64,000 nucleotides of DNA from Actinomycetota bacterium. GTDB lineage: Bacteria > Actinomycetota > Actinomycetes > S36-B12. The position numbers were made by a program, and so were the translations under genes. The stretch is from contig VGCC01000001.1 in the NCBI GenBank assembly GCA_016870195.1, positions 1 to 64,000 on the forward strand, given 5' to 3'. A model generated the notes under the pieces. That model did no database searches. It saw nothing but the letters and a program-made list of their open reading frames with translations, and was not told where the DNA came from. Of this stretch, positions 50,998 to 60,667 are shown piece by piece (position 1 is the stretch's first letter; each line of letters begins with the position of its first letter).

Positions 50998-51197
50998 CGC
51001 CCTCGTGGAAGCCCGTCGACCACGGTGCCACGGCCGAGGGCCAAAACCAAGCCACACACGGCCCTTGCGCCACACCTGAAACTGTGGTGTTCCTCGCAGG
51101 AACCTCCCCGGACGGGGGTGCGTCCTACCGGGGCGTCCCTCACGGGGCACTTACCATGGCATCTCCCCGATGTGGGGGAACGGCCCTAGGGAGCGGT

Positions 51198-52604
51198 GTG
51201 AGCGCACGGCGTCTGCCGCGAGTGATCGCGGGGGTGCTCGCGGGCCTCGTCCTCGTGGTCACCGTCGTCGGCGCCGGTGTGACGACCCTGATGGGCCAAC
51301 TCAGCGACAACATCACGCCCCTCGACGTCTCCGAACAGACGGGCACCGTGGTCGATGAGACCGAATCCCTCGTCGTGGACGAAGAGACCGGCGTGCAAGA
51401 ACCGTTTACCGTGCTGGTCCTGGGCAGCGACTCACGCGTCGGCAAAGACAACCGGGGGTACGGAAGCGCGAAGACGTACGGAGACGTCGAACGCTCGGAC
51501 ACCACGATCCTGCTGCACGTCAATGCCGATCGAACGCGCGCGATCGGGGTGAGCATCCCCCGAGACACGTGGATCACGTTGCCCCGATGCACCAAGGACG
51601 GCAAGACCGTGGGCGGATACCAAGGACGCTTCAACGAGGCGATGGTGATCGGTGGTCCAGGGTGCGTCATCAAGGCTGTCGAGGAGCTCAGCGGCCTGAC
51701 CGTCGAGAACTTCATCGTGGTGGACTTCGGCGCGTTCAAGCGGATCACCGAAGCCATCGGCGGGGTCGAGATCTGCCTGACCGAGGCCGTCAACGACAGA
51801 CAGAGCAAGCTCAATCTCCCTGCCGGCAAGCACGTGGTCTCCGGTGAGGAGGCGCTTGCCTTCGTCCGTGCCCGGCATGGGCTCGGCGACGGGTCGGACA
51901 CGTCACGTATTCGCCGGCAGCAGGCCTTCTTGTCCTCGATGGCCCGCAAGATCCTCAGCAGCGAAGTGCTCCTCAACCCCGCATCGCTGATCAGCGTCTT
52001 GAATGCGGCCACCAAGTCACTGACGACCGACCCCCAACTCGCGAACGTCGACAACGTCGCCGAACTCGCAGTGAGCATGCAGAGCCTGCGTCCCGGCGAC
52101 ATCGTCTTCGCGACACTTCCCTGGCGCTCGTCAGGTGATGGTGCGACCGTCCTGGCCAACAAGAAGAAGGCGAAGGCGCTCTGGGACGCCATCCAGAACG
52201 ACACGCAGTGGCCTCCCAAGGCCTCCGCCGATCAACCACTCCTGAAAGCCGCCCCAGAAACGCTCCGCGTGGAAATCATCAACGCCACGGGAACCAAGGG
52301 TGCCGGTAAAGCGGCAAAGCGATTGCTCACGACAGCCGGCTACAACGTGGTGAACGTCAAGAACGACAAGAGCGGCGAGTACAGCTCGACCACCGTGTTG
52401 TACGACCCTCGGTGGGATGTCTCGGCGAAGACCCTCATCTACGCCGCAAACGCGAAGGGCGTGGAGACAGCGGGCAATGGACAGACCATGCGCCTGGTGA
52501 TCGGACCCGACTTCACCACCGTCAAGGACGTGCAGGTGAGTGAGGCGGCCAGCGACTACACCACCAACGTCAACTCCGCCGACGAATCGTTCTGCGCGGA
52601 GTAG
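51198..52604 (+). CDS. LytR-CpsA-Psr (LCP) family phosphotransferase with LytR_C domain
   Basis: VLVLGSDSR, RSDTTILLHVNADRTRAIGVSIPRDTWI, FVRARHGLGDGSDTSRIRRQQAF; start could be 51156 or 51198. Confidence 0.92.
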   Translation: MSARRLPRVIAGVLAGLVLVVTVVGAGVTTLMGQLSDNITPLDVSEQTGTVVDETESLVVDEETGVQEPFTVLVLGSDSRVGKDNRGYGSAKTYGDVERSDTTILLHVNADRTRAIGVSIPRDTWITLPRCTKDGKTVGGYQGRFNEAMVIGGPGCVIKAVEELSGLTVENFIVVDFGAFKRITEAIGGVEICLTEAVNDRQSKLNLPAGKHVVSGEEALAFVRARHGLGDGSDTSRIRRQQAFLSSMARKILSSEVLLNPASLISVLNAATKSLTTDPQLANVDNVAELAVSMQSLRPGDIVFATLPWRSSGDGATVLANKKKAKALWDAIQNDTQWPPKASADQPLLKAAPETLRVEIINATGTKGAGKAAKRLLTTAGYNVVNVKNDKSGEYSSTTVLYDPRWDVSAKTLIYAANAKGVETAGNGQTMRLVIGPDFTTVKDVQVSEAASDYTTNVNSADESFCAE

Positions 52605-52606
52605 TC

Positions 52607-53464
52607 CTAGATCACCGGAGGACGCCCTGCGCGGGTGAGGGCCCACACCGTGGACCAGCGCATCGGACGCCGCCCTGCGGGCGCGACCCGCATCCCTTCG
52701 CCCAGACCCGCGAACCACGCGCGGAGAGCATCCCGCTCGCGCACACGTGCAACCGTCAGCCCCACCCACGTACCGACGTAGAGCGGCTCGAGCACCACGG
52801 GCAGATTGCGTCGGGCCAGCCACACTCGATTGCGTGCGTTCATTCGATAGAACTCCGCGTGCCGGAGCGGATCGATGACCGGGTGGTGCACGACGAGATC
52901 CCCCGCGTACCAGGCGACGTAGCCCGCATCCCAGACCCGCCACACCAGGTCGATGCCCTCGTGCGCGTAGAAGAACTCATCCGGCCACCCGCCAGCTCTG
53001 TCGAACACGGAGCGACGGATGACGGTCGCTCCCTCCCACAACGCGGTAGCAGGACCGGGTTGACCGGGATCCCCCACCCGCAACCGAGGGACCCACCGAC
53101 CCGGGGAGGTGGCGCCGGTGGGGTCGACCACGCGCGGCTGGATCAACCCGAGTCGGGGATCCCGCGCGAACCTGTCGCGCACCGTCGAGAGAAAGTGCGG
53201 ATCTGGCAGCCAGGCATCATCGTCTAGGAAGAAGAGCAGGTCACCCGAAACGACGGCCGCCCCGGCATTACGGCCCGCCGGAATCCCGCGGTTCTCGGCG
53301 AGACCGAGGGCGCGCACCCCCGGGGGGAGTCCTTGGGGGTCCCAGCCGTTCCCGACGACGACAACGTCGAGGTCGACATCAACCTGGGCGAGAACCGACT
53401 CGAGTGCCCGGGACAACTCCTGCGAACGGGTCCCCATGGTGAGGACGACGACCCCGATGGTCAT
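52607..53464 (-). CDS. family 2 glycosyltransferase
   Basis: MTIGVVVLTMGTRSQELSRALESVLAQ, LFFLDDDAWLPDP. Confidence 0.9.
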   Translation of the reverse strand: MTIGVVVLTMGTRSQELSRALESVLAQVDVDLDVVVVGNGWDPQGLPPGVRALGLAENRGIPAGRNAGAAVVSGDLLFFLDDDAWLPDPHFLSTVRDRFARDPRLGLIQPRVVDPTGATSPGRWVPRLRVGDPGQPGPATALWEGATVIRRSVFDRAGGWPDEFFYAHEGIDLVWRVWDAGYVAWYAGDLVVHHPVIDPLRHAEFYRMNARNRVWLARRNLPVVLEPLYVGTWVGLTVARVRERDALRAWFAGLGEGMRVAPAGRRPMRWSTVWALTRAGRPPVI

Positions 53465-54423
53465 GGTCGCAGCTTGCGCGAGGACAGGATCGCCAGCAGG
53501 TGACCCACCACGGTGACGAGTGCCAGCACCACGAGTGCCGCAAGGAGGGCGCGCGTGGCAGCAAGGTCACCGAGGAATACGTCCACGACCGCCGCGATGA
53601 AAATCAGGATCGTCAGTTCCACCGAGTGGTACGCACGATAGAAGGGAACTGCCCTCACCACGAATCTGAGTCGACGTAGCAGCGCACCCTGGGGCACACC
53701 AACACCCGCGCTGTCTTCCAACCTGTCGAGGCTTGCGTATGCCCGGGCCACATGGACCATGTCGTTCAAAGCCTTGTTGTAGAGGATCAGGACGGCGAGG
53801 AGGGCACCCAGGAGTGGCCAGGGAGGATCGAGCCACCCCTCATCGGGAAATCCCGCGGCACGGAGGCCGAGAGTGATCGGGATGAGCCCCTCCGTCGTGT
53901 AATGCCCGACACGGTCAATAAAGACGCCCAGCGGACTCGTGGTGCCACGCCAGCGAGCGACCTCCCCATCCGAGCAGTCCCAGAGCATCTGGAGCTGGCC
54001 GAGGATCAACGCCGCACCTGCGCCGGGCAATCCAGGGATCAGGATCACGAGTGCCGCGGAGACTCCGGTGCCCACCATCAACCAGGTGACCTGGTTCGCC
54101 GTGATGGATGTGCGCAGGAGGACCGACGTCAGGTAGGGCGAGAGCCTGCGGAGGTACACGTCTGCGACCCAGTGCTCGGAGTTCCGCCGACCACGCACAG
54201 ATGGGGGCTGACACACGGTGCGAATTTGCGCGATCGTCGGATGATCCGCCATCAGGACATCCTCCTCACGGATCGCAGCCACTGGACAGAGGCCAGGATG
54301 ACGCACACTGGCAGGAGCCAGATCGACGCCGCGCGGAGTTCTAGGTCCAGAACACCGATCCCGACAGCGACGAGCACGAGGATCGTGCGTCCCTCCCAGC
54401 CGAAAGCGAGCCAGTCCAACCAC
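53461..54423 (-). CDS. CDP-alcohol phosphotransferase family membrane protein with altered catalytic motif
   Basis: DGEVARWRGTTSPLGVFIDRVGH: DG-x2-AR-x8-G-x3-D-x3-H (final Asp is His). Start uncertain; MADHPTIAQIRTVCQ is a likely internal start. Confidence 0.85.
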   Translation of the reverse strand: MVGLARFRLGGTHDPRARRCRDRCSGPRTPRGVDLAPASVRHPGLCPVAAIREEDVLMADHPTIAQIRTVCQPPSVRGRRNSEHWVADVYLRRLSPYLTSVLLRTSITANQVTWLMVGTGVSAALVILIPGLPGAGAALILGQLQMLWDCSDGEVARWRGTTSPLGVFIDRVGHYTTEGLIPITLGLRAAGFPDEGWLDPPWPLLGALLAVLILYNKALNDMVHVARAYASLDRLEDSAGVGVPQGALLRRLRFVVRAVPFYRAYHSVELTILIFIAAVVDVFLGDLAATRALLAALVVLALVTVVGHLLAILSSRKLRP

Positions 54424-55937
54424 CGGGGGGGTCGCGATCCCTGAAGCGCGCGGTAGAGGGTGTCGTAGTGGTGATAGGCGACGATGAACAGATATCCGAA
54501 CGCCAGCGGGAGGAGTTCGTACGCGGAGCCGAGGACAATCGCGGCGACCAGACCCAACTCAATGAGGCAGATCAGGGACGGCCAAATCCAGACCCAGCGC
54601 CCGGCGGGCAGCCGCAGTCGTAGGAGCGCCGCAACTGCGGCTCCCACCGGACCATCATCGAGTTGCGATCTCACCAGCGTGACGCCCGCGGTGGGGGTTA
54701 ACCCACTCCAGGTGAACGTGCGCGCGATGCGTCCGAGTGCCGTGTACAAGAACGCGATCGCGACGAGCACGAGCAGCGCAAGCAACGCAACGTAGCCGTT
54801 GAAGAACATCGCACCGATGCTGAGCACCAGCCAGCGTTCACCGATCGGCATGTGCACGACCTTCTTGACCCAGCGCACGGCCGCACGCCGATTCATCCGA
54901 GTCGATACCTCCACGAACCCGCCGGTATGCGAGGTGCCGTCGTCAAGATCCGTCAGTGGCCGGGGTGCCACATGCGCCTCGCGGAGGCGCTGAATGCGCG
55001 AGAAGGTGTAGTCGCCCATATGGCGCACCGTCTGCAGGACGACGAGGACGACGGCAACCCACCAGGCGGGGAGCCCCCCGATCACCGCCCCTGTCGCCAG
55101 TCCCGCGTAGGCGGCATATTCCTTCACTCGATCCGTTGACGCATCGAGCCACGCGCCGAGAGCACTGAACCGGCGAGTCGCGCGAGCTACCTCACCATCG
55201 ACGCAGTCCACGACGAGAGAGAGCTGGAGAGCGATCGCTCCCGCCACCAGCCAGGCGCGAGTCCCTTGCGCGAAGGCGAGCGCAGCGAGAACACCGAAGA
55301 TGAAGGAGATCACCGTGATGGTGTTCGGCGCGAGTCCGATACGGAGTGCTAGACGGGTGGCCGGCTTCGACACGCGGCGAACAAGGAATGTCGAATAGAA
55401 GCCATCGTCCACACGGTTGGCCTGGAGTTGAGCGATGCGTTGGTTACCCACCGTTGCCACTTCGCGCTGAGCCGCTTCACGATCCGTCGGACCACGGAAC
55501 CACGGAACGTCTACGAGTTCGATCGCCTGGACGCCGATGCCGGCGCGAACGAGGGCGACGACACACAGTTCAAGCAACTCGTCTTCCTCGACTGCAAGCG
55601 CACCGTGAGACAGAAGTGCATCGAGATCCATCAGGGCAGATACCGCTGCGCTCGCATCGGTCGTGCTAATCACCAGGGCACCGACACCCACGTGCGTGGG
55701 GGCGCTCACCCGGTGAACGCTGCTGCCCGCAGAGACCACGCGATGGTGGCGCACCCGCAGATTGCCTCGAGGATCGTGGCGGACCAGGATTGAGGTGGAT
55801 ACGAAGGGGTCAGACGCCAGAGGCGCGAGGGCCGCCTCTGCGATCACGAGGTCCGCTGCCACGAGGACCACCGGATCGGCAGGATCGCGGAGTCGGTCCA
55901 GGATCGCAGTGAGCCCCCGACCGCGGACGCGGATCAC
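54252..55937 (-). CDS. fusion: truncated nucleotidyltransferase-like N-terminus + CDP-alcohol phosphotransferase + DUF5941-like C-terminus
   Basis: DGEVARATRRFSALGAWLDASTD exactly fits DG-x2-AR-x8-G-x3-D-x3-D; ~190 aa N-terminal soluble region with VVLVAADLVI. Confidence 0.75.
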   Translation of the reverse strand: MIRVRGRGLTAILDRLRDPADPVVLVAADLVIAEAALAPLASDPFVSTSILVRHDPRGNLRVRHHRVVSAGSSVHRVSAPTHVGVGALVISTTDASAAVSALMDLDALLSHGALAVEEDELLELCVVALVRAGIGVQAIELVDVPWFRGPTDREAAQREVATVGNQRIAQLQANRVDDGFYSTFLVRRVSKPATRLALRIGLAPNTITVISFIFGVLAALAFAQGTRAWLVAGAIALQLSLVVDCVDGEVARATRRFSALGAWLDASTDRVKEYAAYAGLATGAVIGGLPAWWVAVVLVVLQTVRHMGDYTFSRIQRLREAHVAPRPLTDLDDGTSHTGGFVEVSTRMNRRAAVRWVKKVVHMPIGERWLVLSIGAMFFNGYVALLALLVLVAIAFLYTALGRIARTFTWSGLTPTAGVTLVRSQLDDGPVGAAVAALLRLRLPAGRWVWIWPSLICLIELGLVAAIVLGSAYELLPLAFGYLFIVAYHHYDTLYRALQGSRPPRWLDWLAFGWEGRTILVLVAVGIGVLDLELRAASIWLLPVCVILASVQWLRSVRRMS

Positions 55938-57076
55938 TCCGAATTCTCCCGCAGCAGACTGCGCCAGCCTTGGCGTCGGATTTCACGCAGAAGACGTCCC
56001 GCGAGTTGGCGGCTGGTCGGTTGTTCGTGCATTGCCTCCACCGTCGCGGCTAAGGCGGCGACGGCTGCATCTATCGGAATGTCATTGATCGGCGACAAGG
56101 ATTCATCCGGAAGTCGCACGGTCAAAGCCGCTAGGTCTCCAATCACCCGCACCCGGCTCGAGGCGATCATGGCGGCGGCTGCAGTGCCTTCGGTTGCCGC
56201 CGCATCGAGTGCCCACGGCGGGGTCGCCAATCGCGCCTCGTTCACTCCCGGTTCTCGGCTCTCAACCATGCCCCTGGCTACACCACGTCGGACGACGGTC
56301 ACGTACTCGGTCCAGTCCATCGATTTCTTGACACGAGCATTCAGTCGAACGAGCAGTTCCGCCTCGGCAGCCGTCATGGAGCGATTGCTCGTGAGATCCA
56401 TCCGGGACACGAGGATCTGCGGATCGATGCCCAAAAGTTGCGCGAACGTCGTGAACATTGCCGACCGATCAACATCCTCGAGCACGAGCACTGTGAGTCG
56501 GTCCGGTCCGGCCGCTGCCGTCCACCGTTCGACCACGGCGCCATGCGCCTGGCGCTTCCAGAAGGTGGGTGACACGCGGGAGGTGCCGGGGGTTGCGAAC
56601 ACGTCCTGCAGCCAGGGTTCGTAGTCGGTGGTCAGTCCATACTTCAAGTACTGCTGCCATGAGGAAGGCAGGAGCCTGCCCAGATTCCGCAGGGTTACGA
56701 CCACGTGCACACGACGTCCGCCTAAACGTTCGACGACTTCACGGGCTACATCTTCGGGGGCTTCGCAGAAAAACTCGCTGCTAATGACGACGCGACCCGG
56801 ATACTCGGACACGCGCCTACTCAGTCGATCGAAATGTGCTCGATCGAGTACCGCACCGCCCTTGTTCTTCCAACCCCAGGGGCGCCCGAGGACGGCCAGT
56901 GCCGCGCGGTGCTGGGCCTGGAGCTTGCCGGGGTAGCGCACACCCGACTCAGCGAGTTCTCCGCGCGCGTCGGCCAGGGCCGCTTGGATCGCAGTTGTGC
57001 CCGTCTTGTGAACGCCGATGTGCACGAGGACTGCATCCTCGGGAAGGGAGTCCACGGGGGGAAGGGAGCCACCCAT
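55934..57076 (-). CDS. sulfotransferase-family protein
   Basis: MGGSLPPVDSLPEDAVLVHIGVHKTGTTAIQAAL (5'-PSB-like HKTGTT) and VVVTLRNLGRLLPSSWQQYLK (3'-PB-like). ORF track over-extends upstream. Confidence 0.78.
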   Translation of the reverse strand: MGGSLPPVDSLPEDAVLVHIGVHKTGTTAIQAALADARGELAESGVRYPGKLQAQHRAALAVLGRPWGWKNKGGAVLDRAHFDRLSRRVSEYPGRVVISSEFFCEAPEDVAREVVERLGGRRVHVVVTLRNLGRLLPSSWQQYLKYGLTTDYEPWLQDVFATPGTSRVSPTFWKRQAHGAVVERWTAAAGPDRLTVLVLEDVDRSAMFTTFAQLLGIDPQILVSRMDLTSNRSMTAAEAELLVRLNARVKKSMDWTEYVTVVRRGVARGMVESREPGVNEARLATPPWALDAAATEGTAAAAMIASSRVRVIGDLAALTVRLPDESLSPINDIPIDAAVAALAATVEAMHEQPTSRQLAGRLLREIRRQGWRSLLRENSE

Positions 57077-57086
57077 GACCACGAGC

Positions 57087-57893
57087 CTAGTTGTCGTCCT
57101 CGGAATCCTGCGGATCCTCGTCCGACCTGAGCGCTCGCCGTGCGGCGCGCATGCGCTCGATTCCCCCATCGACGTCGAGCGCATGAATCCGAGACTCATC
57201 ATCGATGTACAGGGATCGATCGAAGTGCGCGTCGAGTTGGCGTGGGGCCTCGCTGGCAACGAGGAATGTGACGCCGCGGGAGCGGAGTTCGGCGATATGG
57301 GCGAAGCATTGCGCGCGAAACGCGGGCTCACCCACCGCGAGCACCTCGTCGATGGCGAACGCCTGCGCATTCGTTGCCATGGCAGTAGTCCAGGCCAATT
57401 TCTGTCGAACGGACGCTGGAGCTTGACCCAGGTGCCGATCGAGCTTCGAAGCAAGTCCGGCGCTGTCTGCGATGTCCGCGACAAACTCAGCAACCTGGTC
57501 AGGCGTCATGCCCAACAGTCCACCAAGGAGGTAGATGTTGTGGCGCACGGTGAACCCACGACCCAGGGTGCGAGCGAGGTCGATCATCGGGACCCACAGG
57601 AAGCGACGTTCGACAGTTCCGGAGTCGGGCAAGACCGTTCCCGCTGCGAGTCGCAGAAGCGCCCGTCGGTGCGCAGAGCGCGCACCCAGGACGAGTACCG
57701 ACTCCCCCGGGTGAACGGTGAACGACGCATCGGTGACCGCGGCGAACTCCTCCCGTCGAGTTTCTCCCGCAAGGCGACGGAGACGTTGCCTACGGCCCCC
57801 ACCCTGACGCCGCTTTCTCTTGGGCAGCGCAAGGGACACATGCCGAAAATCGACGGCCGACTCGAGGTTCGGTTCGATACGGATGCGCGCCAT
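57087..57893 (-). CDS. Wzt/TagH-like ABC transporter ATPase homologue with degenerate catalytic motifs
   Basis: Walker B AFAIDEVLAVGEPAFRAQCFAHI as in Wzt/TagH, but Walker A position reads VLVLGARSAHRRALLRLAAG. Confidence 0.82.
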   Translation of the reverse strand: MARIRIEPNLESAVDFRHVSLALPKRKRRQGGGRRQRLRRLAGETRREEFAAVTDASFTVHPGESVLVLGARSAHRRALLRLAAGTVLPDSGTVERRFLWVPMIDLARTLGRGFTVRHNIYLLGGLLGMTPDQVAEFVADIADSAGLASKLDRHLGQAPASVRQKLAWTTAMATNAQAFAIDEVLAVGEPAFRAQCFAHIAELRSRGVTFLVASEAPRQLDAHFDRSLYIDDESRIHALDVDGGIERMRAARRALRSDEDPQDSEDDN

Positions 57894-57894
57894 C

Positions 57895-58761
57895 TCATGC
57901 CTCCTTGAGCACGCGCGGCTCGAGGCGATGGAAGACGATGACGCCGATCACCACGATCACGAGCGTGCTGGCAACGGAGACAACGAGGGCCGAAGGTGGG
58001 ATGGCTTCGTCAGGCCACCAGCCAATTCGGTAGAGGCCGAACACGCCCACGAGCGGATTGATGGCCGCGACGTTCTGAAGCACCTCGGGAATTCGACCGA
58101 GGGTGTAAAGGATCGGAGTGAAGTAGAACAGAGATCGCAGGACGATGCGCACCGTGCGTCCGAGGTCAGGAGTGAGCGCAACCGCCGGCGCGATGATGAG
58201 AGCGAGCCCATACATGGCGATGAACTGCATGACCATCGCGACCGGAAACAACACGATCAGCGGACCGGGGATCGACTGGGTGATAGCCATGGCGATGATC
58301 AGGATCGGAAGCGAGAGGACGAACTCGATTCCAGACGAGATGATCACGCGAAGGATCCAAATCTGCGTCGGCAGAAGGCTGAAAATTAATTCACCCCGAG
58401 CCCGGCGAAACACCTTGGTGCTGGCACGCATCCCCTTCAGGAACCACCACCATGGCAGGACACCGAGCACGATGAACAGGAGATAGGGACTCAAGCCGAA
58501 GCTACGGGCGCCGAGAAGCACCGAGAACACGAACCAGAGCACCGCAGCCATGCCCAGTGGTTCGAGTAGCGTCCACAGGTACCCGAGTCGGAAGGTTGTG
58601 TACTGACGCTGCAGGTCGCGGCGCACCAGCATGCGGAGCACTTGCCGGTGCTCCCAGATGGTTCGCACGGCGATTACGATAGGGCAGTCCGATGCGAGCC
58701 CCCGCCTGACACAGGCATCCACGAGGAGCACCTCCACACGTGAGTCGCACCACGTCGTCAT
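57895..58761 (-). CDS. ABC-2 type polysaccharide/teichoic acid export permease (Wzm/TagG-like)
   Basis: LVRRDLQRQYTTFRLGYLWTLLEPLGMAAVLWFVFSVLL, WWWFLKGM, six TM; stop adjacent to the ATPase start. Confidence 0.9.
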   Translation of the reverse strand: MTTWCDSRVEVLLVDACVRRGLASDCPIVIAVRTIWEHRQVLRMLVRRDLQRQYTTFRLGYLWTLLEPLGMAAVLWFVFSVLLGARSFGLSPYLLFIVLGVLPWWWFLKGMRASTKVFRRARGELIFSLLPTQIWILRVIISSGIEFVLSLPILIIAMAITQSIPGPLIVLFPVAMVMQFIAMYGLALIIAPAVALTPDLGRTVRIVLRSLFYFTPILYTLGRIPEVLQNVAAINPLVGVFGLYRIGWWPDEAIPPSALVVSVASTLVIVVIGVIVFHRLEPRVLKEA

Positions 58762-59978
58762 GGACGTCCCTGAGTCGCAAGGCTGCGCGTGCGCTCAGTA
58801 ATCGACTGCGGGAGTACGGTCGAGGTGGATCAGACGGATTCACCCTCGCCAATATTCCGCGCGCCGATATCGCGCTGCATTTCTCGGATCCGCCGAGCAA
58901 GCTCTATCAGCTCCAGCAGTGGTTGCCGATCTTCGAAGCGGGTCCACGCCCCACGATCGTCGTGACGCGCACCATCGAGACATACGACGCACTGGCCGGT
59001 GCAACGTCCCTGCCAGTGCTCCTCGTACCCACCTTCGAGGATCTGATGGCGCTGTACGACACAGCCAACTTCCGCTGCGTGGTGTACGTCAACAACGGAT
59101 GGAGCAACTTCCAGTCATTGGCCTACCAGGAAGCCGTGCACATTCACGTCAACCATGGTGAGAGCGACAAGATCTGCATGGTGAGCAACCAGGCCAAGGC
59201 CTACGACCGAGTCTTCGTCGCAGGTCGCGCCGCCGTTGAGCGCCACCGTGCCGCGCTCGCCTGGTTCGACGAGTCACGCCTGGTGCCGGTGGGGCGCCCT
59301 CAACTCGATCTGGAGATCACGCCCCCGGTTTTCCCGCATTCCGGTCCGACGATCACCTACGCGCCCACGTGGGAGGGGGAAGACGAGGCGAACAACTACA
59401 CGTCGATAGATCGATATGGAATGGCACTTATCGCGGCAGCGCTCGCCCAGCCGGGTGCACGCGTCCTCTACAAGCCCCATCCACGCATCGTCACAAGCAC
59501 CACACCGGCTATCCGCCAAGCCCATGAGCGCATCACGGAGGCGATCCACCAGGCGGGTGCGCCCCATGCGTCGCTCCCCCGGGCGGACATGCTCGGCGTG
59601 ATCCAGGTGACGGACCTACTCATCTCCGATGTGTCCAGCGTCTCCCTGGACCACCTCTACCTTCGACCGGAATCGCCTATCCTCCTCTGCGATCGACGCT
59701 CCGATCACACGCGCCTCGTCGACGACACACCCGTGGCGCGGTCGGCGACGACGATCGATGCGACGACGATCGACAATGCTCGAGCCATCATCGGCTCCAC
59801 TCTCGCCGAGGACAGACTGAGGGATGCGAGGACCGAGATGCGCCAGTACTACTTCGGCGATCCCAGCCCAGGTGACAGCACACACCGCTTTTGGAGCGCG
59901 ATCGATCGTGCGATCGACGATCACGACGCGGCCGTACGTAACCTTCAGCGCACTCGCGTGACCGGGGAGGTCTCATGA
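58740..59978 (+). CDS. CDP-glycerol glycerophosphotransferase (TagB/TagF)-like polymerase
   Basis: VHIHVNHGESDKICMVSNQAKAYDRVFVAG, ITYAPTWEGE, VLYKPHPR, LLISDVSSVSLDHL. Confidence 0.87.
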   Translation: MSRTTSSWTSLSRKAARALSNRLREYGRGGSDGFTLANIPRADIALHFSDPPSKLYQLQQWLPIFEAGPRPTIVVTRTIETYDALAGATSLPVLLVPTFEDLMALYDTANFRCVVYVNNGWSNFQSLAYQEAVHIHVNHGESDKICMVSNQAKAYDRVFVAGRAAVERHRAALAWFDESRLVPVGRPQLDLEITPPVFPHSGPTITYAPTWEGEDEANNYTSIDRYGMALIAAALAQPGARVLYKPHPRIVTSTTPAIRQAHERITEAIHQAGAPHASLPRADMLGVIQVTDLLISDVSSVSLDHLYLRPESPILLCDRRSDHTRLVDDTPVARSATTIDATTIDNARAIIGSTLAEDRLRDARTEMRQYYFGDPSPGDSTHRFWSAIDRAIDDHDAAVRNLQRTRVTGEVS

Positions 59979-60667
59979 CCCTGCAAGCGGTGATCCTGGC
60001 GGCCGGAATGGGAACACGCCTGGGACGGCCGTGGCCCAAGCCCCTCACCCCGCTCTCCGACGGCCGCACGATCATGCAGCAGCAGATGGACAACCTGCAT
60101 ACGGTCTTCGCGGAGGACATTCGGATTACAACGGTGGTCGGATTCAAGTTGGAGCTGATCCTCGAGGCCTTCCCCGATGTCTCCTATATCTACAACGAGG
60201 CGTACGACCAGACGAACACCAATCGCAGCCTCCTGAAGGCACTTAAGCTGTCCGGCCCTGGCGGAGTGCTGTGGATGAACGGCGACGTGGTCTTCGATCC
60301 CTCTCTGCTCACCCGATGCCGCGAGGCGATCGACTCTGACACCTCGTTCATCTGTGTCAACACGTCCGCGGTGGGTGAAGAGGAGGTGAAGTACACAATC
60401 GATGAGCATGGTCGAGTAGCGCTTCTCTCCAAGCAGGTCTCGAATGCACTTGGCGAGGCGGTGGGCATCAACTACGTGAGCGGGGTCGACAAGGGTGTGC
60501 TCATCACCCGCCTGGCCGAATGCGTGGACGGCGACTACTTCGAGCGCGGGATCGAACTCGCCATCGACAAGGACGGAATGGCGGTCACCCCCATCGACAT
60601 TTCCGATCTATTCGCCGTAGAGGTGGACTTCGAAGAGGACCTTTCTCGAGCCAACGCGCACCTCTAG
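59975..60667 (+). CDS. LicC-like sugar-phosphate/choline-phosphate nucleotidyltransferase
   Basis: QAVILAAGMGTRLGRPWPKPLTPL, WMNGDVVFD, EVDFEEDL; start overlaps the TagF-like stop by ATGA. Confidence 0.87.
   Translation: MTLQAVILAAGMGTRLGRPWPKPLTPLSDGRTIMQQQMDNLHTVFAEDIRITTVVGFKLELILEAFPDVSYIYNEAYDQTNTNRSLLKALKLSGPGGVLWMNGDVVFDPSLLTRCREAIDSDTSFICVNTSAVGEEEVKYTIDEHGRVALLSKQVSNALGEAVGINYVSGVDKGVLITRLAECVDGDYFERGIELAIDKDGMAVTPIDISDLFAVEVDFEEDLSRANAHL

Follow-up and report, generated by a model that had tools for sequence, protein, structure and literature searches.

A conserved Wzt/TagH-type nucleotide-binding domain without catalytic motifs beside an intact type V permease in uncultured actinobacteria

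The window, the whole stretch of 64,000 nucleotides that was analysed, encodes a Wzt/TagH-type nucleotide-binding domain (NBD) that has lost the recognisable motifs of an ATP site and adjoins an intact Wzm/TagG-type permease. The gene was found to be kept intact in at least 61 genomes from two families of uncultured aquatic actinobacteria. Judged from its sequence, the protein would almost certainly be catalytically dead, and we lean slightly towards the reading that this pseudo-ATPase is retained to dock on and gate the permease of a type V exporter that works without ATP. The simplest account has a single loss of the ATP site. The data show the motif loss, conservation, synteny and selection, the lack of any other Wzt in many genomes, and a parallel change at the interface; that no nucleotide is used, that the subunit gates and that passage needs no ATP are inferences.

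Identity of the NBD and its ATP-site motifs

The NBD, its permease partner and their relevant segments are located as follows.

57087..57893, minus strand: Wzt/TagH-type NBD without catalytic motifs (pseudo-ATPase), 268 aa
57753..57821, minus strand: Arg/Lys-rich gate loop and gate helix (residues 25-47), lying between beta1 and beta2, placed by conservation and the AF2 model
57660..57689, minus strand: former Walker A, LGARSAHRRA, residues 69-78
57390..57425, minus strand: former ABC signature, QAPASVRQKLAW, residues 157-168
57306..57362, minus strand: Walker B/D-loop segment, AFAIDEVLAVGEPAFRAQC, residues 178-196
57246..57266, minus strand: former H-loop, FLVASEA, residues 210-216
57895..58761, minus strand: intact permease of the Wzm/TagG type (ABC2_membrane), lying 1 nt upstream of the NBD gene
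58366..58413, minus strand: permease coupling helix, residues 117-132, with Arg132 replaced by Thr

The NBD ORF was full-length, and the motif replacements quoted for it matched the translation letter for letter. The protein had no match to Pfam ABC_tran. NCBIfam models for TagH and the galactan-exporter Wzt matched it with an E value of 3e-16, and the Wzt, TarH and TagH chains of the PDB matched at 4e-17 by sequence and 7e-44 by profile. The AlphaFold model (pLDDT 86) showed a Wzt/TagH fold, including, at residues 33-41, a conserved and Arg-rich gate helix that lies between beta1 and beta2. When this model was searched with Foldseek, WzmWzt (8dne) was matched at 1.6e-18 and nearly all top matches were Wzt, TagH or TarH. 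The HMM and AlphaFold comparison with Wzt/TagH proposed in the first-pass annotation thus placed the protein clearly in the Wzt/TagH line of descent, by sequence as well as by fold.

At the Walker A position, where GxxGxGKS/T is expected, the protein reads GARSAHRRA, with neither the P-loop Lys nor Gly-Lys-Ser; the (Y/F)SSGM signature is replaced by QAPASVRQKLAW, which is not an LSxGM- or LSGGQ-like motif; and the H-loop position holds Glu instead of His. All three losses had been described in the first-pass annotation and were confirmed, as was its account of a full-length ORF beside an intact Wzm/TagG-like permease. The Walker B, which it had called intact, does keep both Asp and Glu in the window, but the Glu survives in only 8 of 53 relatives.

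Motif loss across related genomes

A search of 146 related genomes recovered orthologues of the NBD in most members of the window's family (hereinafter f1), in many genera and at 38-56% identity. Orthologues also exist in another family (f4) of the order to which f1 belongs; both families consist of uncultured Nanopelagicales-type actinobacteria. When genome contigs were searched, the single sequence gave no match and the family profile did. For the motif tally, one gene per genome was used, from 53 f1 and eight f4 genomes. The Walker A Lys was absent from all 61 (0/61), and none of the 61 had the signature Ser and Gly together. Among the f1 NBDs, the P-loop Lys position was occupied by Arg (Arg76) in 42/53, the H-loop His was present in 3/53 and replaced by Asp or Glu in 40/53, the catalytic Glu was present in 8/53 and the Walker B Asp in 33/53, and the A-loop aromatic residue was gone from many sequences. 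The three NBDs that have an H-loop His despite a lost P-loop and signature belong to L223, L225 and L226. The first-pass annotation had proposed asking whether GARSAHRRA-like loops are conserved: the absence of Lys is conserved (61/61), but the letters themselves give way to varied P-loop regions, such as GPKGPGRQ, GLKNSGRTE, GGGLPARQ and SGKPLLRTS in f1. The ATP site of f4 has decayed further, with DSSTHRRQ or DLVTHRPA at the Walker A position.

Orthologues of the permease occur widely in the class. At the 30 loci of these lineages with enough sequence, drawn from f6 and f7 (both sister families) and from many families of the class, the NBD adjoining the permease was canonical in every case (GxNGxGKST, SSGM or SNGM, a VDEVLAVGD-like Walker B, and SH), and the tallied catalytic positions were invariant (30/30). 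Since the Walker A Lys is present in 30/30 canonical orthologues and in 0/61 NBDs of the degenerate lineages, the motif loss is not a matter of chance. In one f7 genome (L125), the canonical NBD lies amid two CDP-alcohol phosphotransferases, a GT2 glycosyltransferase, a LytR-CpsA-Psr (LCP) ligase, a SpoIID-like gene and an NTP transferase. Because these are the same neighbour genes, the loss of ATPase motifs is not explained by a different operon.

Retention of the gate helix, the groove and the permease

Conservation within the f1 NBDs was compared with that among the canonical homologues, as information content in bits per column. It was lower in f1 for Walker A (2.89 vs 3.87), the Walker B/D-loop (3.09 vs 3.83) and the signature region (3.31 vs 3.76), whereas it was higher for the coupling groove (residues 112-131; 3.67 vs 3.49), the gate loop and helix (residues 25-48; 3.39 vs 2.49) and the helix that follows the former P-loop (3.64 vs 3.54). 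The Arg-rich gate helix (RRxGxGRRxRLRR) was retained even where the P-loop was unrecognisable. The gate region is basic in the canonical homologues too (9.7 Arg plus Lys, vs 10.6 in the degenerate NBDs). In WzmWzt, the gate helix stands where the substrate enters, and the lipid-linked head group has been proposed to bind to it (PMC6379404; also PMC7078476).

The permease has the predicted topology of the type V class, with an interface helix, six transmembrane helices, the coupling helix and outer re-entrant helices, the element names being assigned by reading the predicted helix list. An orthologue of this type V (Wzm/TagG) permease was found in about 52 of 85 f1 genomes and adjoined the degenerate NBD wherever checked; apart from a few fragmented assemblies, f1 genomes without the NBD were also without the permease, and vice versa. 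Arg132 of the coupling helix, present in 31/31 permeases with canonical partners, was found in 0/24 f1 and 0/8 f4 permeases; its place is taken by Thr, Pro or Leu in f1 and by Val or Met in f4. Residues fixed in the permeases of canonical systems and replaced in f1 were enriched in the coupling helix (P = 0.017), with Arg132 foremost among them, a modest enrichment over columns that are not independent. On the NBD side, position 118 was Asp or Glu in 30/30 canonical orthologues and Gln in 60/61 degenerate NBDs; in the window it is His. That the acidic residue by the coupling groove and Arg132 of the permease are absent from the same lineages suggests that a coupling contact may have been lost.

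Selection and evolutionary history

Pairwise dN/dS between near relatives was mostly 0.05-0.15 for the degenerate NBD, which is therefore under purifying selection, and mostly about 0.01-0.1 for the permease. This selection, the family-wide conservation and the retained interfaces bear out two statements of the first-pass annotation: that the gene looks maintained rather than decaying, and that it may be a structural or regulatory NBD serving export without canonical hydrolysis.

In a tree of the permease, f1 and f4 formed one clade (support 99/98), with long branches flagged. In an RpoB tree, f4 grouped with f5 plus f1 (88/92), the canonical f7 and f6 fell outside, and a strict grouping of f1 with f4 was not rejected (AU p = 0.10). 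The f5 genome had no such transporter. Since the orthologous exporters of sister families and of the class pair with canonical NBDs (30/30), the simplest reading would be one loss of the ATPase in the common ancestor of f1 and f4, which the change at position 118 common to the degenerate NBDs also supports. In the simplest history, the whole pair would later have been dropped in f5 and in several f1 genera.

Genomic context

The neighbouring genes are listed below.

51084..52601, plus strand: LCP glycopolymer-peptidoglycan ligase
52610..53464, minus strand: GT2 glycosyltransferase
53461..54423, minus strand: CDP-alcohol phosphotransferase
54252..55937, minus strand: CDP-alcohol phosphotransferase with a DUF5941 region
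55934..57493, minus strand: sulfotransferase-like protein, conserved in the locus; the called 5' end lies too far upstream, and the true start is probably near 57090
58740..59978, plus strand: CDP-glycerol glycerophosphotransferase-like protein
59975..60667, plus strand: NTP transferase (sugar/polyol-phosphate nucleotidyltransferase-like)

The locus also encodes a mannose-1-phosphate guanylyltransferase, SpoIID-like and TIGR03089 proteins, and glycosyltransferases. This gene content points to a peptidoglycan-linked, teichoic-acid-like phosphodiester glycopolymer as the probable exported substrate. Among the genes of the locus, none was recognised as a flippase; the same genome does contain one Wzx-like (MOP) flippase gene outside the locus, at a contig end. 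The sulfotransferase-like protein had no Pfam or NCBIfam match and resembles sulfotransferases in a P-loop-like GVHKTGTT motif; two copies of this protein's gene lie beside the degenerate NBD in the f4 genome L128. The DUF5941 CDP-alcohol phosphotransferase adjoins the degenerate NBD in f1 and f4, and the canonical NBD in one f7 genome.

Search for a partner ATPase

The first-pass annotation had considered pairing with a functional ATPase encoded elsewhere and had proposed a search for a second Wzt-like NBD beyond the 64 kb. None was found in the window's own genome, which is 99% complete: beyond the pair described here, neither a Wzt-type NBD (second-best match, 2.7e-9) nor a Wzm orthologue was present. 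At least 18 others lacked a canonical Wzt too: in all, 19 genomes with the degenerate NBD, the window's included and eight of them at least 90% complete, had none, which means here either no match or a best match weaker than 1e-35. The scanned regions of the locus likewise showed no canonical NBD. Canonical Wzts do occur in other f1 genomes, beside other, distant permeases. A trans-acting partner ATPase is thus unlikely.

An ORF of about 840 aa (G000:C6:18704-19300 and its counterparts) has an NBD segment of canonical type that shares 36-40% identity with Wzt, and is kept in nearly all f1 genomes. It may be a fusion of FHA and ABC parts, as in mycobacterial Rv1747. As a partner it was set aside, being present in genomes without the degenerate NBD as well.

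Relation to known systems

ATP hydrolysis is the defining trait of ABC exporters, and those degenerate members that have been studied well retain one working site. In TAP, CFTR, TM287/288 and Pdr5, a non-canonical NBD is kept by selection, as it is here; those heterodimeric exporters keep one working composite site (for TAP, CFTR and TM287/288, see PMC7756269), whereas no catalytic NBD was found for the present system and both of its sites would be dead. The system resembles the Wzm-Wzt/TarGH (TagGH) type V exporters of O antigens, teichoic acids and mycobacterial galactan in fold, in the gate helix between beta1 and beta2, in permease topology, in the adjoining arrangement of the two genes and in its setting in a cell-wall polymer locus with an LCP ligase. 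It differs from them in that the Walker A Lys and SSGM are absent, the H-loop His is almost always gone and the permease lacks the coupling-helix Arg. The MOP-family (Wzx/MurJ) flippases also move lipid-linked saccharides without ATP hydrolysis, but this is a functional analogy only, as their fold is unrelated and the present system has its origin in an ABC exporter. Our literature search, the scope of which lay mostly outside subscription papers, found no earlier description of a Wzm-Wzt or TagGH system that is conserved and yet ATPase-dead.

When an exporter is kept by selection across a clade although its sole cognate NBD shows no recognisable ATP site, one has to ask how it works without its usual fuel. 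With the orthologues of the sister families as natural controls, the roles of an NBD other than ATP burning would become testable, as would the question whether export of a polymer chain needs an ATP stroke at all.

Proposed mechanism and alternatives

The reading that we favour supposes a homodimeric complex, Wzm2-pseudoWzt2, with probably no productive ATP binding or hydrolysis. The pseudo-Wzt would dock on the permease and present its Arg-rich gate helix at the substrate entrance, where it may act in gating. A lipid-linked phosphodiester glycopolymer might then cross Wzm without an ATP stroke, drawn by chain synthesis on the inside and irreversible LCP ligation on the outside. WzmWzt has been reported to form a continuous channel in its nucleotide-free as well as its ATP-bound form (PMC9445017; PMC6379404), which is a precedent by analogy for the plausibility of ATP-independent passage, not a proof of it. 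The fuller proposal, that an ABC exporter lineage wholly gave up hydrolysis and turned into a gated channel or flippase through which a cell-wall polymer moves independently of ATP, either passively or driven by synthesis, is put forward tentatively, at a probability somewhat below even.

The complex might also perform no transport, and the MOP flippase of the same genome could be the polymer carrier. These thoughts meet in the main rival, which we regard as rather doubtful: Wzm and pseudo-Wzt would no longer move polymer but would serve as a sensor of it or as a scaffold for the membrane-bound enzymes of its synthesis, while export fell to another carrier such as a MOP flippase. The MOP-family gene in the genome, the coupling helix without a residue invariant in canonical transporters and the dropping of the whole pair by several f1 lineages fit such a scaffold. 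Against it stand a highly conserved permease with low dN/dS and full type V topology, a gate helix that faces the substrate entrance and is among the best-kept parts of the NBD, and a locus without a recognised flippase gene. An improbable alternative is cryptic nucleotide use, with the altered site binding a nucleotide or another phosphate ligand and so switching the complex. The frequencies of Arg76 (42/53), of the H-loop Asp/Glu (40/53) and of the Walker B Asp (33/53) speak for this, and the genus-g6 lineages that lose the Arg lose the acidic residue too, which hints at a coupled pair; those lineages and f4 have, however, lost the pattern while keeping the gene, and the A-loop aromatic is gone in many f1 sequences. 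Across L210-L218 and L001-L030, the Arg at the P-loop position and the Asp at the H-loop position were mostly kept or lost jointly, hinting at a possible salt bridge in place of the nucleotide. The Arg/acidic coupling counts as weak evidence because the losses fall in related sequences.

We consider it very improbable that the complex is an asymmetric exporter, with a catalytic NBD from another locus as the partner of the pseudo-NBD. Degenerate NBDs are well known in heterodimeric ABC exporters (PMC7756269), and a canonical Wzt with a different permease exists in some f1 genomes; even so, the 19 genomes and the scanned locus regions yielded no competent partner, and the degenerate NBD has no intact signature to donate. 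With its Walker A and signature both missing, it would leave a mixed dimer without a single intact composite site. A pseudogene or a sequencing or assembly artefact has a negligible probability; the first-pass annotation had named a simple pseudogene, or canonical homologues together with a local sequencing error, as what would refute its proposal. The catalytic motifs are gone and the metagenome assembly is a draft, but the frames are open across many genera at 38-56% identity, in independent assemblies and with dN/dS far below 1, and these comparative data rule out both.

Public records carrying the locus

Named records with the degenerate NBD gene were mostly labelled Candidatus Nanopelagicales or uncultured Actinomycetota metagenome assemblies. 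The locus was also carried by public MAG records (L070, L075, L077, L081, L084, L086, L088, L094 and L106) labelled Bifidobacterium breve or Rubrivirga, which are apparently mislabelled Nanopelagicales-type genomes.
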